IMG/VR virus record: IMGVR_UViG_3300032182_000650
Coordinates: 1-28,665 of that record
Length of the DNA: 28,665 nt
Source of the DNA: a virus
Reading direction: 5' to 3' (one strand)
Both the position numbers and the translations under genes were made by a program. Position 1 is the first letter of the stretch. Each line of letters opens with the position of its first letter. Under the pieces are notes generated by a model. It saw nothing but the letters and a program-made list of their open reading frames with translations. It was not told the DNA's origin and searched no databases. Shown in pieces: positions 53 to 21,854 of this stretch.

Positions 53-73
53 TGCTTTGTTTGAACTGAAGTT

Positions 74-101
74 ATTATACAGCTGGTAGGTGGTCGGTCA
101 G
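74..101 (-). promoter_or_regulatory. Candidate sigma70-like promoter
   Basis: On the minus strand CTGACC (4 of 6 to TTGACA) at 96-101 is followed after 16 bases by a perfect TATAAT at 74-79. It lies between the oxygenase stop and the ATG at 52, giving a leader of about 10-15 bases. A T4-late-type reading of the same box (TATAATAA against TATAAATA) is also possible. Only the sequence match supports it. Confidence 0.4.
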
Positions 102-103
102 CG

Positions 104-697
104 TCAGCTGTGCCACCTTATCAGGTGTCCATCATCCACTGCTGAGGGCATCGTGTTGAATGATAGAGTGTGACGCACCTCACGCGATCTGTTGACGGGA
201 ACAAAATGCTGCAGTGTGGATGGGAACATAATCATTGTACCATTTGCTATGGGACATTCCTGCTTAATGTGATACCGTTTAGACATACTCATCTGATTCA
301 CAGTATCGTATGGATTATTCTGTACAAATACAGTGCTACCATCATCACCAGTAATGTACAACACACCAGAGATTATTGACCACGGATGTGTGTGCAATAG
401 TGTCTCATCACCAGTCTCAGATCTATTCAACCAGGCATCACTGACTTGTAGTCCTTGCGCATATGGTTCTTCATAGATGTCATTGTACACATCAGCAATA
501 CTATCATTGATCCAGCTGATAACATCAGTAAAATTAGCATTATCACTGATGTTACACATACTGCGAGATCCATCCTCAGTTTTTCTCCACGCTACTGTAT
601 AGCATTGCTGAAGTAAATGACTGTACAGATCATCAGGCACTGGCAGCTGATACACTGTCGTCGGAAATATCTGAATCTTCGCGATTGATCTTGTCAT
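104..697 (-). CDS. 2OG-Fe(II) oxygenase family protein (2OG-FeII_Oxy_5-like)
   Basis: This 197-residue protein has the layout of the putative 2OG-Fe(II) oxygenase family common in marine phages (Pfam 2OG-FeII_Oxy_5 type). It opens with the family's early strand (IFPTTVYQLPV, 10-20). The core is LHTHPWSIISGVLYI at 101-115, then FPSTLQHFVPV at 158-168, and an Arg (R175) just before LSFN. Likely metal ligands are His102 and/or His104 and His164; R175 would bind the 2-oxoglutarate carboxylate. The first position is therefore an H-x-H motif rather than H-x-D. The ATG at 695-697 places the first strand where relatives have it, so this start is preferred even though it overlaps the upstream ORF by 65 bases. 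The substrate is unknown; a virion protein or a host factor is possible. It is the third oxygenase-type gene in the window and resembles neither of the other two. Confidence 0.85.
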   Translation of the reverse strand: MTRSIAKIQIFPTTVYQLPVPDDLYSHLLQQCYTVAWRKTEDGSRSMCNISDNANFTDVISWINDSIADVYNDIYEEPYAQGLQVSDAWLNRSETGDETLLHTHPWSIISGVLYITGDDGSTVFVQNNPYDTVNQMSMSKRYHIKQECPIANGTMIMFPSTLQHFVPVNRSREVRHTLSFNTMPSAVDDGHLIRWHS

Positions 698-6289: not shown

Positions 6290-6297
6290 TATTTATC
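6290..6297 (-). promoter_or_regulatory. Late-promoter-like box GATAAATA
   Basis: On the minus strand GATAAATA matches the T4 late motif TATAAATA at 7 of 8 positions and the NATAAATA form I recall for T4-like cyanophages. It overlaps the TGA of the 206-aa gene and lies about 30 bases before the ATG of the 304-aa fibre. Two other NATAAATA boxes in the window have nearly the same spacing to a start. Confidence 0.6.
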
Positions 6298-6916
6298 AGA
6301 TAGTATAGTAGGTGAAGACACGCTTGTATGTACCCACACAAGGGTCACCATAAGTACTATTGCTAGAACTAATGCTAACCGAAGTTACACCACCATTAGA
6401 CAATACTTGCGAACCAGAATGACATCCACCAGTGCTTGCACTCACATTCTGTGTAGCATCAAGCTGTTGTGATGATAGACCATTCCAAGATGCATTAGGT
6501 GTGCCATATGATTCAAACTGCTTAGAGATAAGAGTGTTACCAACTTGTCTGTGAGTAAATGTTCTTGTCTCTTGTCCGATCTCAATTCCAAACTCAACAG
6601 TAACACCATAATCAGACGCACGTAAAGTATAACTATTACCCTCGTCCACCTGCACAGCTGCGAATCCAAACTGTGATAGTGTACCAGATAGTCTCACCAC
6701 ATTATCAGCAATACCAAGTGTTAGTCCAGGTAACAAACTACCAGACGTTTGACGGAAACTATCGACATTGGTTGCGATTATAATGTCAATAGCATCACCT
6801 GTTTTTCCTTGGGTAAGCACATCTTCATCATCCCATTGCCACTCTGCAACAAGCACTGAACCAGCAGATTCTGATCCAGAAGACATAACCCCTTTCGCGT
6901 ATCCAATAGGACTCAT
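6296..6916 (-). CDS. Hypothetical fibre-region protein (206 aa)
   Basis: The ORF is 206 residues, beta-rich, with no recognisable enzyme motif. The N-terminus MSPIGYAKGVMSSGSESAGS resembles the start of the 1359-aa protein. The middle (residues about 25-120) alternates strands, including SYTLRASDYGVTVEFGIEIG. The C-terminal third is Ser/Asn-rich, with two Cys in the GGCHSG and GDPCVG contexts, and ends RVFTYYTI. The start codon overlaps the stop of the 419-aa fibre as ATGA (6913-6916), so translation is coupled. It could be a fibre-tip or fibre-accessory protein. Position and size alone suggest a receptor-binding or adaptor role; I do not recognise the family. Confidence 0.75.
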   Translation of the reverse strand: MSPIGYAKGVMSSGSESAGSVLVAEWQWDDEDVLTQGKTGDAIDIIIATNVDSFRQTSGSLLPGLTLGIADNVVRLSGTLSQFGFAAVQVDEGNSYTLRASDYGVTVEFGIEIGQETRTFTHRQVGNTLISKQFESYGTPNASWNGLSSQQLDATQNVSASTGGCHSGSQVLSNGGVTSVSISSSNSTYGDPCVGTYKRVFTYYTI

Positions 6917-8172
6917 TGAAAGTCTAAGCCTCCGATGAAACCTAACCAGGACAAACCATTATTAGTTGTAGACAATGTAACTACATCAATTCTACCAGAT
7001 GTGGTAGAAAGCTGAGGAGGAGTACCACCCGCCCACTTAGTATTAGCAGGCCAAGTAACACTGTAACTACCTTGCGATGTGATAATCATTGTCAAAGACA
7101 CGGACCTAGAATTAGCAGGCAGTGTCACGTTCATTGTGTTAATGATATCATTCAATGTCAATGTAAAGACAGATGCAGTTCTAGCATCGATGTCAACCAC
7201 ATTGCTAACGATTGTCAACCCTGCCACAGCTTCATCAAAGCAACCATTGATTCTCAATGGTGTCTCTAATGTGAGCACCGTAGGTGTAATCATCACACGG
7301 TTCTGAAGATTCAGATCCACATTGATGACTGGTGCAGCAGAATCATCATTTCTAACTGTCACACCACCACCATCATTAATGATGGAGAATGGTTCATTAC
7401 GAAGAGAGTTCTTATGTAATGTGATGCCAGACTTCTGTGCCTGTGATGTATTAGGCATCACTTCAATGAACGTACCAAATGCATTGGTATGATCAGATCT
7501 AAAGCGAGCAACCACGTCATCAGCTGTAGATGATGCAGTTGACTTAACATCTAGTTTTGCTGCGGGCACAGCTGTACCAATACCAACACGGTCAGTACTG
7601 TCATCAAATACTAAACCATCAGTCTTAATGACGAGACCTGCAGATGCTGCCAAGTCAGTGACAGAAACTGTTGCGGGCAATCTAGCATTATCAACAGTGC
7701 CACTAGTAATTTGTTCACCAGCGATATTATATGTAAGTCTATTAGCACCTTCCCAGATCTCAGTGGCACGCATTGTACCAGTAACATCCAGATCATATGC
7801 GGGAGAACCAGCTGCACTACCACCAACACTGATAGCAGGCACCGACATAATGTCAGTTGCAGGATCATATTCAAATCCAGTTTCAGCACCCAGTGCTAAA
7901 CCAGATCTATACTGAATCTGATTAGATGTAGTACCGCCAGGTTGCAATCCACCAGCAAGACCACCACCAGCAAATAAATTCCAGTAACTAGTGTTTACTG
8001 TACCAGTAACGGATGGTCCTTGGTTTGTATGATCGGCAACACAAATGTAAGTACTAACGGTACTGCCGTCATCATACCACACAAGGTCATCCACGACATA
8101 TGCCGTGGAATTTGACCAGTTGCCTTGCCAGGTAAGCTTAATCTTACCAACGTCGATGAAAAATTCTGCCAT
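6913..8172 (-). CDS. Tail-fibre-like protein (419 aa)
   Basis: The N-terminal module (IDVGKIKLTWQGNWSNSTAY, then STYICVADHTNQGPS) is shared with the 304-aa fibre. Residues about 80-110 (QIQYRSGLALGAETGFEYD) are followed by a shaft with the typical phage-fibre repeat RVGIGTAVPAAKLDV near 200-215. The C-terminal domain has YSVTWPANTKWAGGTPPQLS and ends GFIGGLDFQ. This architecture (attachment module, beta-helical shaft, compact tip) fits a trimeric side or tail fibre. The ATG follows the TAA of the 647-aa gene with no gap (TAAATG), and the stop overlaps the next start (ATGA). The shared ends but different shaft relative to the 304-aa gene suggest duplication followed by domain exchange. Confidence 0.82.
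   Translation of the reverse strand: MAEFFIDVGKIKLTWQGNWSNSTAYVVDDLVWYDDGSTVSTYICVADHTNQGPSVTGTVNTSYWNLFAGGGLAGGLQPGGTTSNQIQYRSGLALGAETGFEYDPATDIMSVPAISVGGSAAGSPAYDLDVTGTMRATEIWEGANRLTYNIAGEQITSGTVDNARLPATVSVTDLAASAGLVIKTDGLVFDDSTDRVGIGTAVPAAKLDVKSTASSTADDVVARFRSDHTNAFGTFIEVMPNTSQAQKSGITLHKNSLRNEPFSIINDGGGVTVRNDDSAAPVINVDLNLQNRVMITPTVLTLETPLRINGCFDEAVAGLTIVSNVVDIDARTASVFTLTLNDIINTMNVTLPANSRSVSLTMIITSQGSYSVTWPANTKWAGGTPPQLSTTSGRIDVVTLSTTNNGLSWLGFIGGLDFQ
8138..8157 (-). repeat. 20-bp direct repeat, copy B
   Basis: Identical to 6229-6248. It sits in the same codons of the paralogous 419-aa fibre. It could be a remnant of the duplication or a short recombination site. Confidence 0.9.
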
Positions 8173-10116
8173 TTACTTAACGGTGACGACAAGATGCCCA
8201 CTACTATCTATATTGAATTCCAAACCGCTTGGTGCGAAGAACTGGTGGGTGTTCAGATTCGAGGAATACTCCGAATAGGAAATGTTAGTCTGTCTACCAG
8301 CATATACAATTGTTAAGTTTGTATCGCCTGGTTGTGGTTTACGAATGATATAATAGTCACCAGCATCTCCAGACTCTTTCCAGTTTGTACCATTCCAAGT
8401 CTTAAGTGTATCTTGGTTGGTATTGTAGAAGATCTGACCCTCAACAGGAGCGGAAGGATCTGTATTACCAGATACATCTAATTTCTCAGATGTCACAGCA
8501 CCTGTATCAAGCTTAGGTGTAGTAACAGCACCATCACGCATTGTAGGTGTAGTGACAGCTTCACTACCAGATACTTGATATAACTTAGGTTCAGTGATTG
8601 CTCCGTTCTGGAGGTTACTATCGATGATACCACCTGGGGCGATCTTAGCTGCTGTCACAGCATTGTCTCCCAGTTTCGGTGTCGTCACACTCAAGTTAAT
8701 GATCTTGTTTGTAGACACCGACAGGTCATCTAGCGTATCCGTCTGGACTCGCGTGAAATCTTGGAGCGTACCAGTAGCGGTTGCAGGCGACTGGAATACG
8801 TATCCTGGCGAGTAAGCAGAGTAGATACTACCATTGTAATAGCGTACCCTAACGTAATAGTTAGTAGAAGGACGGATAGAGTCAAGGGGAATCGGGAATA
8901 AAGTACGGTTTGTGGTGTCATCTGTTGCAACGATGACAAGATTATTAAACTCAGCATCAGTGGCAACCTGCCAATCACTATGGACGTGTGTCTGAACTGC
9001 AGCAGGTGTGGCAACAAATGATGATGTTGTGACATCCATTCTATCATAAATGGTAGATTCAATCACACTCACAATAGAAGGACATTGCAGCTCAGCAGGA
9101 ACAGCAACAGTATTGAAATAGATTGGTTCTGACCATTCAGAATACCAATACGTATTTGCTAAGTCATAGTATTCATAACGGACACGAACATAATATGTCT
9201 TACCCTCTTCTAATCCAGAGCTGATAGTAATAGAGGTTTTGTTGTTAATATCATTTGTCGATGTAAACACCAGACCACTGGTGTTACTAATCTGTGGAGA
9301 TGTCGAAGCATATCCACCAGGAGCTTGTGTGCTATCGCTACCAAACGTAGGCGTGAATGCAATCTCCCACGTAGATGACACGTGAGTAGCATTGTTAGTA
9401 CCAACGAAACCAGATGCGCTAATAGTTGGTTGGATGGAAACACCCGTGGCAGTATTAACAGGACTCAGGATTTGTGGACGATCAATCTTAGGATTGACGT
9501 TCGTCTGAGTGTCAGTATAGAAAGAGGTAGCAGAACTATACTCAGATAAAGACCCAAGGTTATCTTTATATCTTGCTCTTACATAGTAGAGCGTATCAAA
9601 GCTGAGATTTGACGGCGTAAACTGTGTTAGATTGACAGGATCATCATACGATGACTCGACAACGTTAGTGAACAAATAATCAGTGGCAATTTCCCAGTCA
9701 GTTCTCGTATGCGTACGAACACCAACGAACTGCGACGACTGAATGATTGGTTGTAACTGTGTGGGTGACGTTACTGTAATAGTGGGAGTTTCAATAACTA
9801 ATCCAGTATTAAAATCAGCAGTCTTGGACCAGTTACTGATATCACCATTGCTACCACGGTGACGAATTCGTGCATAGTAGTGCACATTACTCTGCAGTGT
9901 AGCTGCAGGTACAGTTAAACTAGTTAAGTTAACTGCATCATTCTGATCGTAAACAATGGAAGCAGATGCAAAATCTGCCGACTCAGCAATTTGCCAGTCG
10001 GTAGATGCGTGCGTCCCTGCCGCTGCTTCTGCATAAAAGATCGTAGTGACCAATGCAGGAGTCAGCGAAGCGGGTGACGGAATGCTTCCCAATGCTGGTG
10101 GGAAAATAATTGCCAT
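8173..10116 (-). CDS. FN3-like multi-domain tail-fibre protein (647 aa)
   Basis: Four FN3-like beta-sandwich modules occupy about residues 10-105, 110-202, 213-337 and 344-444. Each carries a signature like THTRTDWEIATD followed by a YYVRARY-type strand. A shaft at 455-548 repeats (A/S)VTTPKL-type units (SVTTPKLGDNAVTAAKI, GAVTTPKLDTGAVTSEKL), a pattern frequent in phage fibres and likely to trimerise. Then GQIFYNTNQDTLKTWNGTNW (560-579) leads into a C-terminal domain ending HLVVTVK. The protein looks like a long fibre or adhesin with Ig-like modules for surface contact. The ATG lies 24 bases after the stop of the giant gene, behind a weak late-promoter-like box. FN3-like calls are from strand pattern and repeat, not from a profile search. 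Confidence 0.82.
   Translation of the reverse strand: MAIIFPPALGSIPSPASLTPALVTTIFYAEAAAGTHASTDWQIAESADFASASIVYDQNDAVNLTSLTVPAATLQSNVHYYARIRHRGSNGDISNWSKTADFNTGLVIETPTITVTSPTQLQPIIQSSQFVGVRTHTRTDWEIATDYLFTNVVESSYDDPVNLTQFTPSNLSFDTLYYVRARYKDNLGSLSEYSSATSFYTDTQTNVNPKIDRPQILSPVNTATGVSIQPTISASGFVGTNNATHVSSTWEIAFTPTFGSDSTQAPGGYASTSPQISNTSGLVFTSTNDINNKTSITISSGLEEGKTYYVRVRYEYYDLANTYWYSEWSEPIYFNTVAVPAELQCPSIVSVIESTIYDRMDVTTSSFVATPAAVQTHVHSDWQVATDAEFNNLVIVATDDTTNRTLFPIPLDSIRPSTNYYVRVRYYNGSIYSAYSPGYVFQSPATATGTLQDFTRVQTDTLDDLSVSTNKIINLSVTTPKLGDNAVTAAKIAPGGIIDSNLQNGAITEPKLYQVSGSEAVTTPTMRDGAVTTPKLDTGAVTSEKLDVSGNTDPSAPVEGQIFYNTNQDTLKTWNGTNWKESGDAGDYYIIRKPQPGDTNLTIVYAGRQTNISYSEYSSNLNTHQFFAPSGLEFNIDSSGHLVVTVK
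8473..8754 (-). repeat. Fibre-shaft repeat array (VTTPKL type)
   Basis: Residues about 455-548 of the 647-aa fibre contain imperfect short repeats built around (A/S)(V/I)T(T/E)PKL and GAVTxxKL. This is the usual look of a triple-stranded phage fibre shaft. Confidence 0.7.
8785..10089 (-). repeat. Four FN3-like modules in the 647-aa fibre
   Basis: Four protein-level repeats of about 90-125 residues, recognised by the anchors THASTDWQIA, THTRTDWEIA, THVSSTWEIA and THVHSDWQVA and by a later YYxRxRY strand. They have diverged at DNA level. Confidence 0.75.
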
Positions 10117-10137: not shown

Positions 10138-10145
10138 AATTTATG
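10138..10145 (-). promoter_or_regulatory. Weak late-promoter-like box CATAAATT
   Basis: On the minus strand CATAAATT differs from the NATAAATA form only in the last base. It overlaps the end of the giant gene and lies about 21 bases before the ATG of the 647-aa fibre, closer than the other boxes. Confidence 0.3.
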
Positions 10146-13100
10146 CGCAAGTGGGGTTACAGTCACCCAGGTAGCTGAACAGAATAGGCCACGGAGCAGG
10201 GATCTGGAAGTCCAAGCTCTTAGGCGCAATGCCGTCAGTTACTTTAATCTGTGCCACACCTTCCATACCGATGATCGGTTGCTCAGCGTGACCGCGATCA
10301 CGCAGGGGTTTAATAAAGTTACAGAAGTAATCATTAGAAGGTGTAATGCAAGCACCGTTAGAGGTGTATGCGAAGTCATAGGTGTGATCCTGACAAGGAT
10401 CAGCAACCGCTACAAGGTTAATCAAGTCAACCAGATCGAACGGAGACTCAACCAGCTCCACCCACAGTGTGTAGACCTTTTGGGTACCACGTGCAGGGAA
10501 GATGGCAGGTTGAATGTCATTCTTCACCGAGAAATCAACAGGCATATTGATACTGGTGTCGCCACGGAATGGGCAATCACGCAGTGTGCCAGTTGCAGCT
10601 GCAAGCTGACCACTGAAAGTATTGAAGTCACCAGTGTTGACCACGGTAGGACCGTTAGCCATATTAGCGTCATTCAGGGTGTAAACCGTTCTAGAACCAT
10701 TGTAAATGGTTTCCATATAAGGGAACTCATTGATCAAGCGCAGTCTCCAAGTGAACTGACCAGCATCAATAGTGTATGAAACTGTAACATCTTGAGACTG
10801 GTTGTTTGTCACAGTCAGATTCTGTGCACCCTTATAGTAATCCTGAACTTGCAGTGTGTTGATGTCAATGTAAGGCAGTGCACTCAGAGGTGAAGGACCA
10901 ACGTCAATTACGAAGGAACGCATCAGGATGTTACCGAAGTAATCACCACAAGTAAGAGTAGTATCAACAAATCCTTGATCGTGACGCAGATAACCGTTAG
11001 AAACGGTGCCACTCCAACCACTATCATATTCATACCACCACATACCCAGCTCAGGCGGGTTAGCAATGACACTGATTTCGTTCGAGATCGAAGATACTCC
11101 AAGACCGTTACTAATCGTCAGCTGATAGGAGTAAGGATCGTTCTCACCGTGAGGAATACCCTTACAAGGCAGGTCAGTAACACGAATCACGCTACCATCA
11201 TTTGCCAGAGGTGGCAGCAACTCAGAAGGAGATTGAACAGGAATCTCAATCAAAGAACCACCATAGTCCACACGGAGCGGGAACTCCTCGGACAGATTGA
11301 TGTAGTTCTCAGTGTAGATGTCAGCTCCATCCAATGTGCAAGCAGTGTGATAGTTAACTAAATCAGCACCATAATCTCTTCTGGATCTGTAGACTGGAGC
11401 ATACAGAGGAACGTATGTGTCAGCAGTATTAGACAGAGTATCCCAGTTGTATGACTTAACACCAGACGCAGTATCATAAGAATAAAGCTTACGATACCAG
11501 TTATACTCAATATTCAAGTCAGTTGCAAGGATATTAACAGGATAGCGACCATCCTTAGGAGACTTATTAGAAGACTGGTAGGACAGTGCATTCGGATAAT
11601 GAGTTTGCTGACCATACTCAGTCACTACAGCAAATGTACTAGCGGTGATAGATGTAGCACCAGAACTCATTGTCAACAGAGGCTGAGCAGGAACTGTAGG
11701 AACATTCGCAACAGTTAACTGCATCGCATTTGTAGTCAACGGAGTGTAGACTGTATTGAAGTCGAGGTGCTGTGTAGCAAATGTTGTGCCACCTTCCTGA
11801 CCGAAGTACAGAACGTTCGAGGATTGTGTCGGGGAAGACATAAAGTCAACCCAAGCACCAGGGGTACCAGGAGTACCGTAACGACGAACTCTAATACCAG
11901 TAACAGTAGTAGAAGTGGGAGCTTCACGCAGTTCGAGATTCTTTCCTGTCCAAGAAGGATCGCTAATATCAAAGCGATAAGTAGCACCCTTGGGTACCTC
12001 AAACACAGTAGAACCGCTAGCGTTCACAACAGTGGCATAATCCTCACCACTTGCAACCAAATTGAATGTAACACGGAAGTTCAGCTTACAACGGAAGAGG
12101 AACTGATCATATTTCCACCACTTATTGATAATCAATGTAGGAATTGCCAGTTCACGACCAGTCACATCCTCAAATCTTTCGATGTAAGAGTAGAACTGGT
12201 TACGTGCATCATAGTTGGTGGAGAACAGATCCTCCTCATCAATCTGACACGATGTACCAGCGCTATTAGGACCAGTAGAAAGCTCATTGATGTTGTACCA
12301 CTGAGCAGTAGATTGACCAGTCTTGGTTGCATACATCTGCCAGGAAGGAACATACTCAAACTTATCATTATCGTATGCAGTCTGGTTAGCAATAAAGGAG
12401 AATGACTTATACGACATTGGACGGTTGTACCAGTCATTATTCACCCAAGTCTCATCATCGTGAGGTTGACCACCTTTCTTAGGAACAGTATTATAATCAA
12501 TTGTTCTATTGAAACCAGTAGTCAGCAGGGTAACGTCAGCAACCGAAGTGGTTGTATTTGTCAGTTGGATAGTATAAGTCTGACTGAAGTAAGAGATGTT
12601 ACATCTTACAGTCAGTGTGAGGTCCAGAGTAGTATTGTTAGTCAGAATACCACTCAGCACACCAGTCTCAGTGTCAAATGTCAGACCAGTATTTTCGATA
12701 GAGTCACCAGACAGAGTATAATCTCTATCCAAAATTGCTTCATCGGCATAAGTTCTCAAGTAAGAAACACCCAGCTGCAGGTTGATAGTATCGCCAATGT
12801 TATAGGTACCGAGAGGACCAGGAGCGGTGTACCAAGTCGTCAGCAGGTTGATATAAGGAGAGAACAGACCGCGAACATTACCACCGTCAACACCTTTGTC
12901 AACAGGTTTGTAAACAATCTCTGTACCAGTACCAGTACCAGCGTCTTCCTGAGCTTCAGTCTGGAAGTACAGCTTATTGTTATTAACATCTTCATCCTGC
13001 CACTTCACAATACCATCAGCAAACTGGTGAGTGTTCTTAAGGTTGGCAACCTTCAAGAGGTTACCACCTTCCTCACTTTGATTTGCAGTAAACTGAGCAG

Positions 13101-16100
13101 AAGGAAGCGTAATCTCAACTAAGTTGTTTCCTGCATCAACATCAGTGATTTGATGCCAAGATGTTTGTAACGTATCGAATCTAATACCACCAACATCATA
13201 GACATAAGAGGAACCCTCAGCAGGTGTATCACCAGGGAAAACAGGATCAGCTTTAAACTCAGGACCCATAATGTATGGGAATGCGGGTTGCTCACTATCA
13301 GTCTCAGTAATGAAGTAAGCATATGTACCATTCGGATAGTCAGGAGTCTTGCAATAACGACCATTCAGTCTATCAACGTCACCAATAATGATACGCTCTG
13401 CCATATTCGGGTGGTTATAGCAGAAGTAGAAGAGAGAATGAGGTGCATTGTATGCAGGAACAATCTCAACACTTCTCTGTGTTGCAGTGTCAAATCCATC
13501 AACATATTCCTGATAGGTAACAACGGCATTTTCAAGCTTATATGTAACACCAGTACCGTAAACAGCGTTAGCGTTACCAACAGTCTGACCAGTCACGTGC
13601 CAACCCTGTGCCTGTGCATCACCATAGGTGGAGAACAGCATAGCGTGAGAGGTGTTAGAACCGTCACTCAGGTCGAAGATATACTTTCTACCCTTGCGGA
13701 AGTTGAAAGAGGGTTTCTCAACAGATCCAGTCAGAGTACCGCCAGAGATATAGTAACGACCACCGCTACCAGTCACAGTAGCAGCTGCTGCCTGAACAAT
13801 AAATGTAGTTTCAAGTGCAGCTTCATCAGTATTACCAACATATTCAAAGTCTTCAATGAAAGATCCAATTGGATCATCAATTTCAGAAGGACGACCAGAG
13901 TATTGATCAGGTGTTCTGCCCTCAAGCTTGAGCAGATATGCAGGCTTCATACGAATGACAGAGCTCTGTCTGTCATCAGGGTTAGAGTATCCAAAAGGAC
14001 CATAGATCGGATATCCATCAAAGGACATACCCAGAATCTTAGAGTGTCCATCACTATGGCGTCTGTAATCACCCTGAACATTGCTGTTGACAACAATGTC
14101 ACCACCTTGCTTGGAATGGTTGGTGCACACATAGTACATCAAAGCAGGTGCACCAGATGGGACTACAAATTCGACAATTCGTGTAGTTGCGGCATTAAAA
14201 CCATTTGTATAAGTAACGGCATCAACCGCCACACCATCCAAGCGGTAAGTAATACCAGTAGCATAACGCACACCACCACCGAAGATACCATCTTCCGTTG
14301 TGGAGAAATAGATCGGATGCGAATCGTTGGACGGGTCATCTTGATTAAAGATGTAGGTGTTACCTCTAGTGAAGTCCAGTTGCGGAGCTTCGGTGTCAGT
14401 AGTAAATGTATCTCCTCTTAAGAAGTATGCATTAGCAGATCCATCTTCAAAGTATTGGTTACCAGCAGTCTTGGCAGCAACAGTCACAGTGTAGTTAACC
14501 GTTCTAAATCCAAGGTCGAAGTAAGATCCACCCAGGTAAGTGCTAGAACTGATAGCAGTAGTGCTATAAGCTGCTAAGAACTTACTAGAGTTATAACCAT
14601 AAACATCGCTGGTGTTGGGGAAACCACCATAAGCATCTTCACCAACTAAGTTACCCTTAGTGACAGAGTTATATGTCCAACCAGGAGTCGGTCCCTGCTC
14701 ATTGCTATAGTGATACAGGAATACGCCAGTGGTGCTCAGACCAAACGGATTGACAGAACGCAGAGGTTTCTGTGTAGGAGTAATCGCCTTATAGTTAGTA
14801 CCACCTCTCCAGTTAAAGTTCTGGTTGAAAGATTGATCAACAATACTGTTCGGGTTACCAGCAGTAATAGAAATACTAGAAACACCAGTTGCTTGAATAC
14901 CACCAATCACATTCGGAGGATCAATCTCAACAATTGGAGCACCAGTGTAACCAGTACCAGGATTGTCGATTGTCAGACCAGAGACATAACCGTCAAGCAC
15001 CGAGATCGTAGCTTCTGCTGCAGCACCGACACCACCGCCTCCAGAGAAGCTGATGGTTGCCTGAGTGTATCCAAGACCCTCTTCATCAACAGTGATACTG
15101 TCAACCACACCAATCTGTGTACCAATAGCACAAGTTGCAGATGCAGGTTGTTCAAACACAGGGTTTTGAGGTGCACTAGAACCTTCGCTAACGACCTCAC
15201 CATAGAACTGATCACCCAGAATATATGGGAATGCAGGGTTATTTGACCCATCAAGAGTCATAAAGTATGCATAAGTACCACCAGGGAACTCAGGAGTTAC
15301 ACAGTAACGACCATTGCGACGGTCAAGATTACCATTGCCAGTGTACTCATAGTCTTCCACAAACGAACCCATCGGGTAAGCTGTAGTAGAAGGTGCAAAA
15401 CCAGAAGGTTCAGATAATGTGATCGTACCAGTCATTGCCTGAGCATTCTCAGACACGTAGTAGTAAGTACCAGGAGCTGCTGTGGTAGTATTCCACAGAA
15501 TCGTAGCGTTGTGGTTACCATTGTTAGTAACGGTACCAACCACCTGAGTGGGATTGTATGGAGCAGGAACAGTCTGGATCCAGAAAGGATGTGTAACTGT
15601 AGTTCCACCGCCACCACCAGAAGAATTGATGATGATTGTACCAACCATACCACCGTGATATTCGCACTGGTAGTAGTAGGTACCTGCATCACCTGCGGCA
15701 GGTGTCCAGGAGACAGTACCAGACTCAGTACCTTGGTTAGTAACACCAGTGATCTGGTTACCAGTACCAGTGCCAGCTTGAGTCTTCAGGTAGAACGGGT
15801 GACCAGATGCAGACACCGTGAAGTTAATAGTGTCACCTTCATTAAACTCCAACGTTGGATCGTTACCGTTAATGTTACCAGTTCTGTCAGAACCAGACAG
15901 AGCATAGTCACTGAAACTAGGTGCAGTAACAACTAAGTTGTAGGTTTGTGGTGTGCTACCACCGCCACCGCCAGTGGTGTAAGAAGCATTAACGTTGAAC
16001 ACAAGGTTGTCGCCAACGTTAGCAGTGATTGCAATGTCACTACCAGTAGAGTAGTTAGCGAAATCATAATCTACGCTGTCATCAGCAGTAACATTCCAAG

Positions 16101-19100
16101 AGTAAGTAGAACCAACATATTGCTCACCAGCACGTTGTGATCTCAGAGCATAAGAGGACTCCATTCTTGCCAATGTGGTTGGCGAAGAAGGTGTAGAGTA
16201 ACCAACAGGACCATAGATGGGATAACCATCATATGCGAAACCAATGATTGGTGAGTGAACTGTGCCGTTCGTGATGTCAGCGCTGGTATGAGAAGGCAGA
16301 GCAGCTGTGTTCTGTGTAGTGGTAACAGATGCAGAATTACCATATCCACTGTACAGAGCAGCATAGTAGTACAGGTTTGGAGTGTTAGGTTGAACTTGGA
16401 AGTATGTACCAGTACCAGACTGACCATCGCCAGGTGTGCCCTGATAACGAATACCAATGGAATACACTTCACCACCTTGCTGGTGAATACCATCAGTAGT
16501 TTCAGAGAATCTAATCTGATAACCAGAGTTTGTAGCATCACTCTGATCGAAGAAGTAAGTGTTACCTTCAGTCAGTACGAGGTTTGGAGTCTCGCCACCA
16601 TTAATAAAGAACTTATTACCTTGAGCTGTATTAGTAACAGTAACAGTATAAGTGGTAGTAAGACCTCTCCAGGTGTTGATCAAGAACTTACCATTGTTAT
16701 AGTAGTATGCACCGTTGCTATCAACAGAACCACCACCATTATCAGCACCGAAAGCTGTGGAGTTATAGACAGTGTTGAATGTGTAACCTGTAGGGCAACC
16801 AGTGCCATCAGGTAGATCATTATTCAAACCGTGAGAATAATGACGCAGCTGAACACCGTTAATAGCAATACCAACACTTTCCATCGATGTGGTAGTAGTT
16901 GGAGTTTCGTCATACAGGTTACGTGCACCACGATAGATGAATGTATGGTTGTAAGACTGACCAGTAATGCTGTTAGTATTATTAGAGTTCGGGAAAGAAC
17001 CATATAGAGCAGGGTTCGGTAAGTTATCCGAAACCACTGTTAGTGCTCTTGTAGTAACGTTCAGAGACGCAGAGGTAGTCGAACCACCACCAGTCACAAA
17101 CAGAGAGTTTGGTGAGAGCGGAGTATTACCTTGATCAGCGGGTGCAGGAACACCAATCGTGACAGTAGGAGCGACAGAGTAACCAGAACCAGGGTTGTCA
17201 ATAGTAATGCTGGTAATGACACCATCAGTCACATTCGCAGTTGCAGCAGCACCTTGACCACCACCACCACTAAACGAAATAACGGGTAAGTTATAGGGGT
17301 TGAAACCAGAACCACCGTTAGTAACTGTAATACTTTCAACACCACCACCAGAGAATGCAATCGTAGCAGTAGCAGTAGCACCTTGACCGTCACCAGTGAT
17401 CACCACGTCAGGAGCTGTGGTATAACCAGAACCACCTTGGGTGACATTGATGGAAGTAATGTTACCACCAGTCAGTGTGATGGAAGCAGAAGCTGCAGCA
17501 TCAACACCACCGCCACCAGTCAGGGCAACGTTAGGAACTGTGGTGTAACCAGAACCTTGATTCTGAATTTGCAGGTTGGAAACGAAACCACTGGTACCAC
17601 CAGAGGGGAACACACCATACAGACCAGGATCAGGATGATTGTCAGTGACAACATTCAACAGACCACCAGACACATAGTAAGCTGCGGTTGGAGAATCAAC
17701 GCTGCTGACCCACACATCGGTGATCACATCAACAGCTGGCAGCGCCTCAGGAACACGGAACTGCAGCGAATCACCAATAACAGGATCTAATCTAGCATAC
17801 TCACTACCAAGAACAATGTTAATGACGTTAGAACCAATAGCAGTCGTAATTCTATTGGTCACACCGTCAAGAACAATCTCATCGATGTCATTAGTAGGAT
17901 AGTTGGTATTAGTAGTGCCACCAAATTCATATCCAACAATACCATCAGTAGCGTAATCCCAATCAATCTCTCTTCTCAACCACTCTTTAGTAATCTTCGG
18001 TACTGTCTTACCACCAAAATAAGTAGCACGGTTCTGTAGACCCATTTTGCCCAAGAACTGACAGACAACACCAGCTGTCAAAGGACCAGAGAATGATGTA
18101 CCCTGAATCAGGGCATAGTAAGTACTACTAACAGAGCTGTAGGAAGTATTAGTATTCCAATAGTATCTCGGGCAGTAGATAGACTCGCCAGGAGCACTGA
18201 TAGTCACACCATCGCCATAGTTAGAGAAGGATGAGAAAGTATCAATGTAACTGGTTGCACCAACAGAAATTTTATCGCTGATGCCTTCCATATTGTACTT
18301 GTAATCCTGAGGACCAGCAGTACGAGGACCAGGATGGAACTTAGCTTGGAATCCACCATACTGAGTGTTATAACCGAAACCGTTACCAGCAGAGCGGACG
18401 AAAACAATACCCTGATCTACACAGAAATTTTCATAGTCATCCATCGCAGTGTCAGCTTCAAATGCACCGCTATCAAATCCAGGTTCGTTCTGAGGAACGA
18501 AAGGATAGATTTCAGAGGGAACAGTAGAGACACCCAGAGAAGCATTAATGACAGCAGGTCTAGTATTTCCCTTATAATCAGGGTGACTGGGGTCATTGTG
18601 GTTAATGATTGCTAACAGAGCAAACACATAGGTAGATAAAGATCCACTACCATTGCTAGCTTGAACCTTCAGTGCGTAAACTCTGGTCTTGTGTGCAAGA
18701 CCGTGCTGAAGACCAGTCGCCATAATGGCACACTCGGTGCCGTGACCGTTATCATCTTCGTTAGAGTCTGTTTCACCATTGACAGTGTAACCAGAGCTGT
18801 AACCAGGAACTTCGTAAACTCTGTAGTTACTTTGATTAGTCAGATCATTCAGATCATCCGCATAATCAGGGTGGAATAATTCAGGGTGTAAATTGGCACC
18901 AGTAGTAGATTGAGGACGTGATGCACCACGGACACCAGTGTCGAGCACATACAGGTCAACACCATCGCCATCTTCAGTGTAGGAATACAGACCGTAGTCC
19001 AATCCATTCTGCTGTTGAGTGATACGTGACAGATACCACTTTGTAAACATTGTCGCTCTAAAGGAGCGAGTTGCAGAGACAGCATAATCGGTCTGAATAC

Positions 19101-19836
19101 CAACTCTAGCAGACTCAGCAGCGTAGATGTAAAGCTCTTTAGGAGTAGTCTGAGAATAAGTTAGAGTGACAGTTGCACCAGTGGTACCAGGAGTGCCGAC
19201 ACGAGCAACACCAACCAAATATTCTGCACCACCTTGGTGAGTACCGTCAGGTGTTTCAGAGAAGGAAAGAGTATATCCAAACATTGACGAGTTAGAAACG
19301 TCAATGGTAAGAATGTGGTTCGGGAACAGATACCCCATCTGAGGGTTCTGGAAGTTTGTATTGATGACAAACTTAGGACCAGCTGAAGTAGCGGTCACCT
19401 CTGCAAACACAGTATATGTGGTGCCTACACCAACTTCATAGGGAATAACGTTACCGTAATCATTCGGTTTAACTTGCATTGCAAGCACGTTCGGATCATC
19501 TGCCTCAGTAGCAACAGCTTGGGCAACCTCCAGTCTGGATGTATTCAGGTTAATACCTGCAAGATCCTCATTCTCGCCACCAATAACCTGATTACCACTA
19601 CCAGTAGGATCGATAGAAATCTCACGATCCCAAATAGCACCAATAACTTCAGGGAATTCGTCTCCCTTCAATATGGCAATGAAGTTATCATCTTTGCCAT
19701 CGAAATCCAACATCACGGTCTTGAGTCTACTCAAGTCGTGGACCTTTTGAAGTGAAGTAAAACGCTGTTTTGCTCTTTCGATAACAGCGCCAGCTTGATT
19801 TTCCTTAGAAATTCTCGCAATAATTCTATTGCTCAT
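10141..19836 (-). CDS. Giant virion/fibre-like protein: S8 protease + YHYH + cupredoxin modules (3231 aa)
   Basis: Layout by residue. Cupredoxin-like module 139-246. Proteinase K-like S8 domain about 262-600 with Asp299 (YVLDTG), His365 (DNGHGT), oxyanion Asn485 (SAGN) and Ser581 (GTSFSGP), so probably active. Gly-rich GSGY repeats 752-897 and 1576-1640. Two YHYH-type domains (DGYPIYGP at 1203-1210 and 1940-1947), both split by cupredoxin-like insertions at 1062-1162, 1297-1404, 1412-1474, 1780-1918 and 2008-2151. A putative Ig/cadherin-like stretch 2340-2430 (GLTFDTETGVLSG), a seventh cupredoxin-like module 2588-2680, and an unrecognised region to 3231. Three modules keep full type 1 copper ligands (H1346/C1391/H1394/M1397; H1840/C1904/H1907/Q1910; H2064/C2139/H2142/M2145). 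There is no signal peptide. The ATG has a late-promoter-like box 35 bases upstream. It is probably a virion fibre or baseplate adhesin that cuts or binds host surface proteins; that role is inference. Confidence 0.9.
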   Translation of the reverse strand: MSNRIIARISKENQAGAVIERAKQRFTSLQKVHDLSRLKTVMLDFDGKDDNFIAILKGDEFPEVIGAIWDREISIDPTGSGNQVIGGENEDLAGINLNTSRLEVAQAVATEADDPNVLAMQVKPNDYGNVIPYEVGVGTTYTVFAEVTATSAGPKFVINTNFQNPQMGYLFPNHILTIDVSNSSMFGYTLSFSETPDGTHQGGAEYLVGVARVGTPGTTGATVTLTYSQTTPKELYIYAAESARVGIQTDYAVSATRSFRATMFTKWYLSRITQQQNGLDYGLYSYTEDGDGVDLYVLDTGVRGASRPQSTTGANLHPELFHPDYADDLNDLTNQSNYRVYEVPGYSSGYTVNGETDSNEDDNGHGTECAIMATGLQHGLAHKTRVYALKVQASNGSGSLSTYVFALLAIINHNDPSHPDYKGNTRPAVINASLGVSTVPSEIYPFVPQNEPGFDSGAFEADTAMDDYENFCVDQGIVFVRSAGNGFGYNTQYGGFQAKFHPGPRTAGPQDYKYNMEGISDKISVGATSYIDTFSSFSNYGDGVTISAPGESIYCPRYYWNTNTSYSSVSSTYYALIQGTSFSGPLTAGVVCQFLGKMGLQNRATYFGGKTVPKITKEWLRREIDWDYATDGIVGYEFGGTTNTNYPTNDIDEIVLDGVTNRITTAIGSNVINIVLGSEYARLDPVIGDSLQFRVPEALPAVDVITDVWVSSVDSPTAAYYVSGGLLNVVTDNHPDPGLYGVFPSGGTSGFVSNLQIQNQGSGYTTVPNVALTGGGGVDAAASASITLTGGNITSINVTQGGSGYTTAPDVVITGDGQGATATATIAFSGGGVESITVTNGGSGFNPYNLPVISFSGGGGQGAAATANVTDGVITSITIDNPGSGYSVAPTVTIGVPAPADQGNTPLSPNSLFVTGGGSTTSASLNVTTRALTVVSDNLPNPALYGSFPNSNNTNSITGQSYNHTFIYRGARNLYDETPTTTTSMESVGIAINGVQLRHYSHGLNNDLPDGTGCPTGYTFNTVYNSTAFGADNGGGSVDSNGAYYYNNGKFLINTWRGLTTTYTVTVTNTAQGNKFFINGGETPNLVLTEGNTYFFDQSDATNSGYQIRFSETTDGIHQQGGEVYSIGIRYQGTPGDGQSGTGTYFQVQPNTPNLYYYAALYSGYGNSASVTTTQNTAALPSHTSADITNGTVHSPIIGFAYDGYPIYGPVGYSTPSSPTTLARMESSYALRSQRAGEQYVGSTYSWNVTADDSVDYDFANYSTGSDIAITANVGDNLVFNVNASYTTGGGGGSTPQTYNLVVTAPSFSDYALSGSDRTGNINGNDPTLEFNEGDTINFTVSASGHPFYLKTQAGTGTGNQITGVTNQGTESGTVSWTPAAGDAGTYYYQCEYHGGMVGTIIINSSGGGGGTTVTHPFWIQTVPAPYNPTQVVGTVTNNGNHNATILWNTTTAAPGTYYYVSENAQAMTGTITLSEPSGFAPSTTAYPMGSFVEDYEYTGNGNLDRRNGRYCVTPEFPGGTYAYFMTLDGSNNPAFPYILGDQFYGEVVSEGSSAPQNPVFEQPASATCAIGTQIGVVDSITVDEEGLGYTQATISFSGGGGVGAAAEATISVLDGYVSGLTIDNPGTGYTGAPIVEIDPPNVIGGIQATGVSSISITAGNPNSIVDQSFNQNFNWRGGTNYKAITPTQKPLRSVNPFGLSTTGVFLYHYSNEQGPTPGWTYNSVTKGNLVGEDAYGGFPNTSDVYGYNSSKFLAAYSTTAISSSTYLGGSYFDLGFRTVNYTVTVAAKTAGNQYFEDGSANAYFLRGDTFTTDTEAPQLDFTRGNTYIFNQDDPSNDSHPIYFSTTEDGIFGGGVRYATGITYRLDGVAVDAVTYTNGFNAATTRIVEFVVPSGAPALMYYVCTNHSKQGGDIVVNSNVQGDYRRHSDGHSKILGMSFDGYPIYGPFGYSNPDDRQSSVIRMKPAYLLKLEGRTPDQYSGRPSEIDDPIGSFIEDFEYVGNTDEAALETTFIVQAAAATVTGSGGRYYISGGTLTGSVEKPSFNFRKGRKYIFDLSDGSNTSHAMLFSTYGDAQAQGWHVTGQTVGNANAVYGTGVTYKLENAVVTYQEYVDGFDTATQRSVEIVPAYNAPHSLFYFCYNHPNMAERIIIGDVDRLNGRYCKTPDYPNGTYAYFITETDSEQPAFPYIMGPEFKADPVFPGDTPAEGSSYVYDVGGIRFDTLQTSWHQITDVDAGNNLVEITLPSAQFTANQSEEGGNLLKVANLKNTHQFADGIVKWQDEDVNNNKLYFQTEAQEDAGTGTGTEIVYKPVDKGVDGGNVRGLFSPYINLLTTWYTAPGPLGTYNIGDTINLQLGVSYLRTYADEAILDRDYTLSGDSIENTGLTFDTETGVLSGILTNNTTLDLTLTVRCNISYFSQTYTIQLTNTTTSVADVTLLTTGFNRTIDYNTVPKKGGQPHDDETWVNNDWYNRPMSYKSFSFIANQTAYDNDKFEYVPSWQMYATKTGQSTAQWYNINELSTGPNSAGTSCQIDEEDLFSTNYDARNQFYSYIERFEDVTGRELAIPTLIINKWWKYDQFLFRCKLNFRVTFNLVASGEDYATVVNASGSTVFEVPKGATYRFDISDPSWTGKNLELREAPTSTTVTGIRVRRYGTPGTPGAWVDFMSSPTQSSNVLYFGQEGGTTFATQHLDFNTVYTPLTTNAMQLTVANVPTVPAQPLLTMSSGATSITASTFAVVTEYGQQTHYPNALSYQSSNKSPKDGRYPVNILATDLNIEYNWYRKLYSYDTASGVKSYNWDTLSNTADTYVPLYAPVYRSRRDYGADLVNYHTACTLDGADIYTENYINLSEEFPLRVDYGGSLIEIPVQSPSELLPPLANDGSVIRVTDLPCKGIPHGENDPYSYQLTISNGLGVSSISNEISVIANPPELGMWWYEYDSGWSGTVSNGYLRHDQGFVDTTLTCGDYFGNILMRSFVIDVGPSPLSALPYIDINTLQVQDYYKGAQNLTVTNNQSQDVTVSYTIDAGQFTWRLRLINEFPYMETIYNGSRTVYTLNDANMANGPTVVNTGDFNTFSGQLAAATGTLRDCPFRGDTSINMPVDFSVKNDIQPAIFPARGTQKVYTLWVELVESPFDLVDLINLVAVADPCQDHTYDFAYTSNGACITPSNDYFCNFIKPLRDRGHAEQPIIGMEGVAQIKVTDGIAPKSLDFQIPAPWPILFSYLGDCNPTCA
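11797..12075 (-). repeat. Cupredoxin-like module 7, ligands lost
   Basis: Residues 2588-2680 of the giant protein. They share the module pattern ATYRFDISDPSW ... RRYGTPGTPGAW ... VLYFGQEGG with the earlier modules. There is no Cys-x2-His-x2-Met/Gln set, so copper binding is not expected. Confidence 0.6.
13384..13815 (-). repeat. Cupredoxin-like module 6 with type 1 copper ligands
   Basis: Residues 2008-2151. Core KYIFDLSDGSNTSHAMLFST gives His2064. LFYFCYNHPNMAE gives Cys2139-x2-His2142-x2-Met2145, the order and spacing of classic type 1 copper proteins. It is inserted inside YHYH copy 2, between EDFEYVGN and DRLNGRY. Confidence 0.75.
14083..14499 (-). repeat. Cupredoxin-like module 5 with type 1 copper ligands (Gln axial)
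   Basis: Residues 1780-1918. NTYIFNQDDPSNDSHPIYF gives His1840. MYYVCTNHSKQGG gives Cys1904-x2-His1907-x2-Gln1910. Gln as axial ligand is known from stellacyanin-type sites. Inserted inside YHYH copy 2. Confidence 0.7.
14917..15111 (-). repeat. GSGY-type glycine-rich repeats, second block
   Basis: Residues 1576-1640. Two units of the type SITVDEEGLGYTQATISF and LTIDNPGTGYTGAPIVEI, separated by GGGGVGAAAEA. Same family as the four-unit block at residues 752-897. Confidence 0.8.
15415..15603 (-). repeat. Cupredoxin-like module 4, degenerate copper site
   Basis: Residues 1412-1474. It begins VTHPFWIQTVP (His1416) and ends GTYYYVSENAQAMTG. The Cys and His positions are Ser1462 and Ala1465, while Met1468 remains. 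A shortened neighbour of module 3 that has lost the site. Confidence 0.65.
15625..15948 (-). repeat. Cupredoxin-like module 3 with type 1 copper ligands
   Basis: Residues 1297-1404. SASGHPFYLKT gives His1346. GTYYYQCEYHGGMVGTIII gives Cys1391-x2-His1394-x2-Met1397. This is the clearest plastocyanin/amicyanin-like site in the protein. Confidence 0.8.
16351..16653 (-). repeat. Cupredoxin-like module 2, ligands lost
   Basis: Residues 1062-1162. It has the shared pattern YTVTVTNTAQGNKFFING, FDQSDATNSGYQIRFSETTD and LYYYAALY, but Gln and Ala stand where the copper-binding modules have His and Cys. Inserted inside YHYH copy 1. Confidence 0.65.
17146..17583 (-). repeat. GSGY-type glycine-rich repeats, first block (four units)
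   Basis: Residues 752-897. Four units of about 35-40 residues, each with GSGY/F, a P-x-(V/I) strand, GGGG or GDGQ, an A-rich strand (AAASASI, ATATATI, AAATANV) and an ITSI-type strand. A pattern familiar from marine phage fibres, possibly a beta-helix. Confidence 0.85.
19099..19422 (-). repeat. Cupredoxin-like module 1, before the protease domain
   Basis: Residues 139-246. TYTVFAEVTA, NHILTIDVSNSSMFGYTLSF, SETPDGTHQGGAEY and GTPGTTGATVT parallel modules 2 and 7. No copper ligand set. It occupies the place where secreted subtilases carry a propeptide. Confidence 0.6.
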
Positions 19837-19870: not shown

Positions 19871-19878
19871 TATTTATG
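19871..19878 (-). promoter_or_regulatory. Late-promoter-like box CATAAATA
   Basis: On the minus strand CATAAATA matches TATAAATA at 7 of 8 and NATAAATA fully. It overlaps the TAA of the 224-aa oxygenase gene and lies 35 bases before the ATG of the giant gene, in a 37-base gap. A likely start of a separate late transcript for the giant protein. Confidence 0.65.
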
Positions 19879-20548
19879 ATCTCAGATCGCCTTTAGTTCT
19901 AAGTAAATGCATTTCGGCATTGTCGAGGGCATTTTGCAACCCCCAACCAGGATGATCTGGACTAGTAATGTTATATTTTAATGATGTTTCTTTTATATTT
20001 GCATATGCCATACGATCCATAGGTTCCTTGAATCGTGATTGTGACCACAATACTGCTACTCTTCTCTCTCCAGATGTAATAGGTGTAACCCTATGATGTA
20101 TTCCAGTAGGATAACTAAACGCCCATCCAGATGGCAATTTGATTTCTAAAGTTTCCGTTCCAAATTTAAGCTCTAACACTCCACCTTCATATTCTTCAGG
20201 ATCGTTAAGAAATACCGTCGTACTAACATCAGCTCGTATTCCGATACCTTCGCCCATATGAGTATGATCAACGTGCCAATCATAATGACATCCAACACCA
20301 TACTTACAAAAGTGTGGCAATGTATATGCAGAAGTAACTAAAGATCCATAAACTATTGGATGATTAGTATAGTCTTCTTCAAATAATCTCCAGCACGCTA
20401 GGGCAGAGTCTCTACAAAGCTGGAGATTATTTTTCAGTTTTTTGTTTTTACTACCAGATTCTGATCCATCTTCCCAGATACCAGTATCAAATAGATTTGA
20501 TATATGTTTTGCTTTGACGTGATTCAGAACTTCATAACGATAAAACAT
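19874..20548 (-). CDS. 2OG-Fe(II) oxygenase, PiuC/PKHD-hydroxylase-like (224 aa)
   Basis: The enzyme core spans about 70-172. CHYDWHVDHTHMG gives the H92-x-D94 iron ligands, HHRVTPITSGERRVAVLWSQ (151-170) gives the distal His152, and Arg162 would bind 2-oxoglutarate. The ending 'HRV.P...GER...V.W.QS' is characteristic of the PKHD-type/PiuC hydroxylase family. The family hydroxylates proteins or small molecules using O2 and 2-oxoglutarate; this enzyme's substrate is unknown. The length is close to the family norm. The ATG is three bases after the stop of the chaperone gene, so the two are co-translated. The position directly before the giant fibre gene suggests that virion fibres could be substrates. 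The C-terminal tail 173-224 is extra and unassigned. Confidence 0.9.
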   Translation of the reverse strand: MFYRYEVLNHVKAKHISNLFDTGIWEDGSESGSKNKKLKNNLQLCRDSALACWRLFEEDYTNHPIVYGSLVTSAYTLPHFCKYGVGCHYDWHVDHTHMGEGIGIRADVSTTVFLNDPEEYEGGVLELKFGTETLEIKLPSGWAFSYPTGIHHRVTPITSGERRVAVLWSQSRFKEPMDRMAYANIKETSLKYNITSPDHPGWGLQNALDNAEMHLLRTKGDLRS

Positions 20549-20551
20549 AAA

Positions 20552-21202
20552 TCAAGAAGGTCTAGTTGGCCAACCAGTAAAGTTATCAGGATCGTAAGGA
20601 TCAGCTTGTGCTGCAGGAAGGTCTCTCAGTTCTTGACGATAAGTCGCCCAAGATGTCTTAGCATCATCGGAGAGAGGAGAATCTGGCATCTGTGTCCAGT
20701 CAGTATCATCTAAACGTGTATTTCTTCCAGCCTTCAAAGCTTTGATATTTAAAGGTGTGCCATCTTCACGATAGCTCCATTCCCTCCAAGTATCCTCTAC
20801 TTTAGCTGCTTCTGCTACTTCATATTCAGTTTTAAGTTGCTCTAATCTTGTTCTAAGAGCATTGTAAACTTTATCGCCTTCTTCTCTACTAGGACCACCA
20901 TTGTTAGGTGTCTTATTATAGTTCCTAGGAATGTCATCGACAACATCAGTGTTTTCGGTGATGTAAAAAGATGGTTCAATTACACCATCACCATCATCAC
21001 TAGATTTCCAATAATAAAACATCTCAAGCTGATCAACATTGGGAACATCCCAAATACCAACCAGCAAAGGTGCCACTAATGTATTGTATTCTTCCTCTTC
21101 AATCGGGAAGAACAGAGTAGTTCCATAAGGAGCGTGGTAGGTACCAATCACCTTTTGAACATTGTTAATAACTACGTCAGCTTTTGCGAAATCTCTTGCC
21201 AT
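20552..21202 (-). CDS. Tail-fibre assembly chaperone-like protein (216 aa)
   Basis: The C-terminal segment (about 160-214) carries the hallmark of phage tail assembly chaperones (Phage_tail_APC type): NTRLDDTDWTQMPDSPLSDD, then SWATYRQELRDLP and finally GWPTRP. The middle (about 105-140) is a long charged helix. The N-terminal 100 residues, with an acidic EEEEY patch, are variable and probably bind the fibre. Such proteins help fold or trimerise tail fibres, and many bind the fibre tip. The ATG follows the previous stop after a single base (TAAAATG), with a late-promoter-like box 36 bases upstream inside the preceding gene. It is flanked by two oxygenase genes, an arrangement that links hydroxylation with fibre assembly by position only. 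Confidence 0.88.
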   Translation of the reverse strand: MARDFAKADVVINNVQKVIGTYHAPYGTTLFFPIEEEEYNTLVAPLLVGIWDVPNVDQLEMFYYWKSSDDGDGVIEPSFYITENTDVVDDIPRNYNKTPNNGGPSREEGDKVYNALRTRLEQLKTEYEVAEAAKVEDTWREWSYREDGTPLNIKALKAGRNTRLDDTDWTQMPDSPLSDDAKTSWATYRQELRDLPAAQADPYDPDNFTGWPTRPS

Positions 21203-21203: not shown

Positions 21204-21854
21204 TTACGAGTTGTGATAATACCAACCAGTCAAAATATATTTATTGCCTTTCAATACTGTGTTTCCTCTGTGTGGGTGTGTAAACCCAGCTGGCCAAATA
21301 ACTACAGTTCCTGCAGGAGGATTTACACGACGTTTCTGCTCTAGAAATTCGGTCTCACCGCCTTCATAATCATCATTCAAATAAATTGCCCAAACCAAAC
21401 AACGTGATGAATGATCAAGACCCATTGCTTCAAAGTGCCAGACGTGATAACCACCACCTTCTTCAGTCTTCTGCATTTTTATACAGCTACTGATCAATGA
21501 CTGAGTTGTAAGCTGAGGAAACTCAGAGATATAGTGTTCGAGGGTTGACATCAAATATTGATTGCAACACTGCTGCAGTTCAGGATTTTGATGTGTAATT
21601 AAAGTTTGCTTATCAAGTCTCCCTAGTCCACCAATTTCAAACTGGAATCTACCATCGGCAACTTCTCCAGGATCCATTCCAGGTTGAACGACACAAGAGT
21701 TACTCTCTAGATTTTCAAACCAGTTAATATATTTTTGGCATTCTGATTTGGGCATAAACCCTTCCCAAACACCAATGAAGTCGTCAAAGTTTGATTTAGT
21801 CAAATTCCCGTCAAGCATCAGCTCAGCAGGACGAATAGGTGTAATAGGTTTCAT
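21204..21854 (-). CDS. 2OG-Fe(II) oxygenase, prolyl-4-hydroxylase-like (216 aa)
   Basis: The core is GGGYHVWHFEAMG (133-145), with H140-x-E142 as the likely iron ligands (Glu in place of the usual Asp). It is followed by YLNDDYEGGETEFLEQ (158-172), PAGTVVIWPAGFTHPHRGN (180-198) with distal His195, and Lys205 in GNKYILTGW for 2-oxoglutarate. This order is that of the prolyl-4-hydroxylase superfamily widespread in marine T4-like phages. Expected chemistry is hydroxylation of a protein side chain, probably proline. The ATG directly abuts the TAA of the 965-aa collar fibre (TAAATG), indicating coupled translation with fibre genes. The substrate is unknown; neighbouring fibres are candidates. AT-rich codon use differs from the giant gene downstream. 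Confidence 0.9.
   Translation of the reverse strand: MKPITPIRPAELMLDGNLTKSNFDDFIGVWEGFMPKSECQKYINWFENLESNSCVVQPGMDPGEVADGRFQFEIGGLGRLDKQTLITHQNPELQQCCNQYLMSTLEHYISEFPQLTTQSLISSCIKMQKTEEGGGYHVWHFEAMGLDHSSRCLVWAIYLNDDYEGGETEFLEQKRRVNPPAGTVVIWPAGFTHPHRGNTVLKGNKYILTGWYYHNS
21238..21245 (-). promoter_or_regulatory. Late-promoter-like box AATAAATA
   Basis: On the minus strand AATAAATA fits NATAAATA. It lies inside the last codons of the P4H-like gene, 36 bases before the ATG of the chaperone gene, the same spacing as the box ahead of the giant gene. Confidence 0.55.

Follow-up and report, generated by a model that had tools for sequence, protein, structure and literature searches.

Conserved blue-copper ligand sets in predicted cupredoxin modules of a giant cyanophage baseplate/tail-type protein

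Blue copper proteins are known from textbooks as cellular electron carriers, and the appearance of their copper ligands in a structural protein of a virus raises the question of whether such a protein holds type 1 copper sites and what these might do there. This question is posed by a viral window of 28,665 nucleotides (the whole stretch of DNA analysed, from IMG/VR record IMGVR_UViG_3300032182_000650), in which a first-pass annotation had read three His...Cys-x2-His-x2-Met/Gln sets in one giant protein. Indeed, all twelve residues lie at the claimed numbers in a single open reading frame (ORF) (Table 1). The C-x2-H-x2-[MQ] motif occurs only three times in this 3,231-aa protein, in the modules designated here B, D and E, and the ligands in the window read HCHM in B and E and HCHQ in D.

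The ORF matches PHROG families 27200, 708 (baseplate wedge subunit) and 677 (tail-fibre connector), among others, and the genes around it are tail-type, including three tail-collar proteins, a tail assembly chaperone and three 2OG-Fe(II) oxygenases. The oxygenase genes are found at 104-697, 19874-20548 and 21204-21854, and two of them adjoin the chaperone gene (20552-21202). Contigs that carry orthologues of the ORF bear genes for the photosystem II reaction centre, and a T4-type portal gene is present in addition on the two longest; thus, the source of the window is very likely a T4-like cyanophage, in support of the cyanophage origin initially suspected. The ORF contains a subtilase domain in which the catalytic residues D299, H365 and S581 are all present, with the motifs LDTGV, GHGT and GTSFSGP, and it is a member of the YHYH family (PF14240), which it matches over five stretches with 143 bits compared to a cut-off of 25. 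The YHYH domain is a predicted metal-dependent hydrolase (PMC7824862). YHYH occurs in phage tail and baseplate proteins and is the host domain of the modules. In the giant ORF it is interrupted by cupredoxins: A and C (the latter containing B) split domain 1, and D and E split domain 2.

Table 1. Features of the giant ORF, with positions in the window
Feature	Residues (aa)	Position	Strand	Remarks
Giant baseplate/tail-type structural ORF	3,231 in all	10141..19836	-	one uninterrupted frame
Degenerate cupredoxin-like segment	135-255	19072..19434	-	without ligands; module profile
Subtilase (peptidase S8) domain	291-593	18058..18966	-	PF00082, E 2.5e-23
YHYH domain 1 (PF14240)		15250..16905	-	pieces 16657-16905, 16054-16284, 15250-15441
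Module A, cupredoxin-like	1061-1178	16303..16656	-	ligands lost
Module C, N-terminal half	1244-1284	15985..16107	-	module-B profile
Module B	1297-1404	15625..15948	-	H1346/C1391/H1394/M1397; inserted in module C
Codon of first ligand of B	1346	15799..15801	-	H1346
Ligand loop of B	1391-1397	15646..15666	-	C1391-E-Y-H1394-G-G-M1397
Module C, C-terminal half	1415-1475	15412..15594	-	H1416/S1462/A1465/M1468, dead in window
YHYH domain 2 (PF14240)		13300..14847	-	pieces 13828-14055, 13300-13389
Module D	1780-1918	14083..14499	-	H1840/C1904/H1907/Q1910
Module E	2008-2151	13384..13815	-	H2064/C2139/H2142/M2145
Degenerate cupredoxin-like segment	2589-2700	11737..12072	-	module profile

Module C is a fourth cupredoxin that the first-pass annotation had overlooked; it is interrupted by B and itself lies within a YHYH domain. 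The insertion point of B, reached via Gly-rich linkers, is directly before the His strand of C. The module-B profile scores 15.6 bits on the first half of C (model positions 2-47), 51.1 bits on the second half (49-106) and 70.5 bits on the two halves joined, and the same split is seen in orthologues. Module A has Ala in place of Cys in the window, and its orthologues mostly read YCYY at the ligand columns. Similarly, the ligand columns in orthologues of the two degenerate segments read YATV or YETM (aa 135-255) and K, G, G, T/S (aa 2589-2700). Some relatives of the giant ORF carry extra full-site modules, placed within D (L034, L046) or after a GYPIYGP motif (L050, L054); these inserted cupredoxins with intact sites lie within module D or YHYH, and one kind has Gln. 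In three other relatives (L112-L114), a B-like module splits a subtilase between its His region and its later SSGN region. Subtilases recur with such cupredoxins in cyanophage proteins (the window, L131 at 6291-8333 and L112-L114), either fused to them or with the cupredoxin inserted in the protease.

The ligand spacing had been likened to that of amicyanin, plastocyanin and, for the Gln site, stellacyanin. The likeness to amicyanin stands: B (CEYHGGM) and E (CYNHPNM) have exactly its C-x2-H-x2-M loop, and the alignment to amicyanin 1sfd has no gap across this loop. The comparison does not hold for plastocyanin, which in the sequences aligned has two extra residues there, nor for stellacyanin, whose spacing is also different. 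The distance from the first His to Cys is 45 residues in B, but 64 in D and 75 in E, pointing to a long inserted loop in the latter two. The modules share with the blue copper proteins of PF00127 (amicyanin, plastocyanin and pseudoazurin) the cupredoxin fold, the His...Cys-His-Met order, the aromatic strand before Cys and a G-x-I/V at the end. They differ in that the PF00127 proteins are free soluble carriers, whereas the modules are embedded in a giant virion-type protein, with a longer His-Cys stretch in D and E. They differ as well in the residue that follows the first His, which is usually Asn in plastocyanin, azurin and amicyanin, but is Pro in 111, Ala in 22, and Met and Gly in one each of 135 full-site segments, and is never Asn. 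Amicyanin is the electron carrier for methylamine dehydrogenase, a role that is implausible for modules of a virion.

Structure prediction bears out the cupredoxin assignment. The mean pLDDT of the AF2 models is about 92 for B, 88 for C, 89 for D and 80 for E, and all four predicted folds are Greek-key beta-sandwiches of the cupredoxin type whose PDB matches are copper proteins; the three modules first proposed are thus confidently predicted cupredoxins. The B model matches rusticyanin (Z 10.3, rmsd 2.2, 96 residues) and the split C model (62..304) matches a laccase domain (Z 9.8, rmsd 3.3). The D model matches laccase domains (Z 8.8) and the E model matches rusticyanin (Z 8.8, rmsd 3.5, 116 residues), both scores being near the level that the tool designates 'common', although the matches agree in kind and span the whole domain. 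Copper nitrite reductase is also among the top matches. Both models are poor in their YHYH parts (pLDDT <50) and do not predict how the modules are arranged relative to YHYH. Among viral models, BFVD entry A0A7D3QVK4, a protein of the giant virus Fadolivirus annotated as a blue type 1 copper protein, was also a fold match. Although rusticyanin, two-domain laccases and copper nitrite reductase are the best structural matches, the ligand loop of rusticyanin and laccase (C-x4-H-x4-M) is longer than that of the modules. The HxH and HCH motifs of the multicopper oxidase trinuclear cluster are absent from the ligand loops (Q-C-E-Y-H, V-C-T-N-H and F-C-Y-N-H), and the lack of an HCH motif, and hence of a trinuclear cluster, rules out a multicopper oxidase identity.

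For module B, the link to copper proteins extends to sequence. Run against PDB sequences, a profile built on the B region recovers plastocyanin (E 2.5e-5), amicyanin, pseudoazurin and nitrite reductase, and a Pfam Copper-bind match is obtained in all 20 members of the A2 set (best E 1.4e-7). The window copy of B scores 12.9-17.8 bits against PF00127, under the curated cut-off of 21.2, and is therefore not filed as a member of that family. With the A1 profile, which spans D, E and YHYH, no copper protein came up among PDB sequences, and D and E are linked to copper proteins through fold only; a PDB search with the single 947-aa region sequence found nothing relevant. T4-like cyanophages also encode a plastocyanin, petE, as a short separate gene (324-369 in the paper's table) that is thought to be active in the infected cell (PMC3037559). 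The petE product is likewise of the blue-copper type, but petE is a metabolic gene of its own, whereas the modules are parts of baseplate and tail proteins. Capture of petE into a virion gene is not supported, as the likeness to plastocyanin is at the profile level only and the nearest cellular matches are from Bacteroidetes.

The ligands are retained or lost together. Among 237 aligned related segments, 135 have full sites (128 HCHM and 7 HCHQ) and most others have no ligand at all; part of the search patterns included Cys or His, which may bias such counts. Grouped at 50% identity, 10 of 23 clusters have all four ligands and 9 have none, whereas 10,000 column shuffles yielded a mean of 1.3 clusters with all four and a maximum of 5. 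Across both the segments and the clusters, Cys, both His and Met are lost jointly rather than singly. One could suppose that the motifs arose by chance or convergence, given the length of the protein and its wealth of beta strands, many of them rich in aromatic residues, but the shuffles and this set-wise conservation, together with the profile homology and the fold match, rule out a chance motif, and we regard such an origin as highly improbable.

The modules differ in how strictly their sites are kept. HCHM is found in 27 of 27 orthologous segments of B (20 of 20 in a separate tally) and in 18 of 18 of E (13 of 13 orthologues in a separate tally). The invariant Cys and His codons of B vary synonymously (TGC/TGT and CAC/CAT). 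Based on this position-specific conservation and the synonymous variation at invariant Cys and His codons, B and E are, as far as sequence can speak, under selection as complete sites. In the sister family of the PHROG 708 type, D reads HCHM in 31 of 31 and the E site is lost in 31 of 31; these loci were most likely retrieved via a YHYH pattern and are thus less biased for Cys and His. Module C retains HCHM in 11 of 16 orthologues and reads HSAM in the other 5, the window among them. The weak case is D, which the first-pass annotation had listed with the others and whose site is not kept in orthologues: within the giant family it reads HCHM in eight, HSGE in three, NG-M in one and HCHQ in the window only. 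No orthologue shares Q1910 with the window, all others having Met or a lost site, and Gln as fourth ligand also occurs in more distant relatives (e.g. L028, L031 and L115). The D site of the window may be either degrading or of the Gln type. Free variation of Cys and His among homologues, which would have refuted the first-pass annotation, was not seen: B and E are invariant and sites elsewhere vanish as a unit, although D is weak.

The same pattern bears on whether the ligands hold copper. Sequence cannot tell the identity of a metal, many cupredoxin folds are metal-free and several copies here have no site, so that the residues might hold zinc, nickel or iron, or no metal, and be kept for packing. 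However, Cys, both His and Met disappear jointly rather than singly. The only common axial change among related segments is Met to Gln, a tolerated change that is also seen among natural type 1 copper proteins. By sequence as well as by fold, the nearest matches are to proteins that bind copper. We therefore consider another metal, or none, unlikely.

The modules are not a peculiarity of one protein. They are present in a giant phage protein, as first described, but are also widespread in cultured cyanophages: tblastn matches were obtained in 248 phage records for module B, 322 for the gp9 C-terminus and 302 for another module, nearly all of them Synechococcus or Prochlorococcus phages, along with a Methylophilales phage. 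In addition, viral contigs hold at least 553 confirmed stretches of module relatives. Annotated cyanophage relatives are baseplate or tail proteins. A frequent location is the C-terminus of the gp9 tail-fibre connector, whose versions are among the most regular (about 320 records); in gp9 of S-SM1 (L126, 6391-7611), for example, a full-site module forms the C-terminus, behind an N-terminal domain of the T4 gp9/10 type. The earlier designation as a virion protein is supported by these annotations and by mass spectrometry of a relative, S-SZBM1_206, rather than of the window's own phage: this 498-aa baseplate protein, with a C-terminal full-site module (HPFEIRF...YVYQCTIHSGM), was identified by 9 peptides (24.9% coverage) in virions purified on CsCl (PMC9146016). 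We dropped S-CREM2 gp122 as virion evidence; it is present in virions by published mass spectrometry, but has YHYH without a detected cupredoxin.

Cellular relatives are few and mostly from Bacteroidetes, several with lipoprotein-like leaders. The nearest to B are secreted-type cupredoxin proteins (L134-L142), which share 38-53% identity with it and likewise have HCHM; these are cellular proteins, whereas the window modules belong to a virion-type protein. Three of them (L134, L137 and L139) have leader-like N-termini and end in one or two cupredoxins of the module family. A further pair of loci is L133 (QCLS01000003.1, 189,106 bases), which is filed under a Prochlorococcus single-cell genome, and L115. 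The former equals in length an IMG/VR virus contig that has T4 portal and photosystem genes, and a phage genome thus appears to lie within a host assembly.

What might copper do on a phage tail? One proposal is that marine T4-like cyanophages bear working blue-copper redox centres on their baseplates or tail-fibre connectors, as sensors of redox state or of oxygen or superoxide, or for electron exchange with the host surface, such that the copper redox state controls attachment or triggers tail contraction. In its favour, type 1 sites have a geometry adapted to electron transfer, phages that infect photosynthetic hosts carry the modules widely, and one site or more is retained at fixed positions even though ligand-free copies are predicted to fold. 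However, we saw no redox partner and no trinuclear cluster motif, the Methylophilales phage relative implies that photosynthesis is not required, and lineages differ in the number and position of sites. We consider this proposal doubtful, both as a use of copper in general and as a switch for attachment or firing. A redox function is possible, and unnecessary for explaining the data.

An equally doubtful proposal is that virion copper is a lure or scavenger, a copper Trojan Horse that docks at copper-handling surface proteins or itself takes up toxic copper. Type 1 sites do bind copper very tightly, but a site of this type that is buried gives its metal up poorly, and no copper receptor is implicated. 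The proposal has a conceptual precedent, by analogy, in the iron-binding HxH sites of phage tail fibres, for which a helping role in adsorption, as metal ligands, has been proposed (PMC11705849). Those sites are also metal ligands in marine phage tail proteins, but they hold octahedral iron in trimeric fibres and are unrelated in fold and metal.

We favour the interpretation, with a probability of roughly 0.6, that the modules are true cupredoxins with type 1 Cys-His-His-Met copper sites, serving as metal-holding accessory domains of the T4-like cyanophage baseplate or tail. This interpretation draws on what the analysis shows, namely the predicted fold, the set-wise ligand conservation, the relatedness of B to plastocyanin and amicyanin, the nested arrangement of the modules and their occurrence across cyanophage baseplate proteins; against it are the score of B under the Pfam cut-off, Pro or Ala rather than Asn after His, and the lack of conservation of D in orthologues. 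In such a scheme, loops of YHYH domains would have taken up the modules as mobile accessory units, and the virion would carry them on the outside of the baseplate or tail. B and E, and perhaps D, would each bind one copper in a type 1, that is, mononuclear, site. Free copper is nearly absent from the cytosol, and loading would therefore probably occur after lysis. The bound metal could lock the ligand loop of a surface-exposed domain, aiding stability or contact with the host surface, and copies without a metal site at some positions would persist as plain beta-sandwich spacers. The fold of the module is independent of metal, since ligand-free copies persist at many positions, but the metal probably does something at fixed positions, where the site is never lost. 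Local stability or surface contact seems to us likelier than redox chemistry, given that we see neither a partner nor a pathway and that lineages differ in how many sites there are and where they lie.

The fold and ligand set are already known, being those of blue copper proteins, but their setting (the virion baseplate, the nested insertion and His-Pro in place of His-Asn) appears to be undescribed in the open literature, as far as we searched it. Among the listed open-literature papers on cupredoxins and phages, judged by title or abstract, we found no earlier report of a blue-copper domain as a component of a virus particle. The module family is not rare: depending on the query, 248 to 322 records of cultured phages have a match, cyanophages in nearly all cases, as have hundreds of viral contigs. 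A cupredoxin within a cupredoxin within a YHYH domain illustrates clearly how domain insertion enlarges phage tail proteins. Should the sites be loaded, there would be several coppers per virion; this would bear on the stability and adsorption of the phage and on copper chemistry in the sea, and would give a tail protein a visible (blue) handle.
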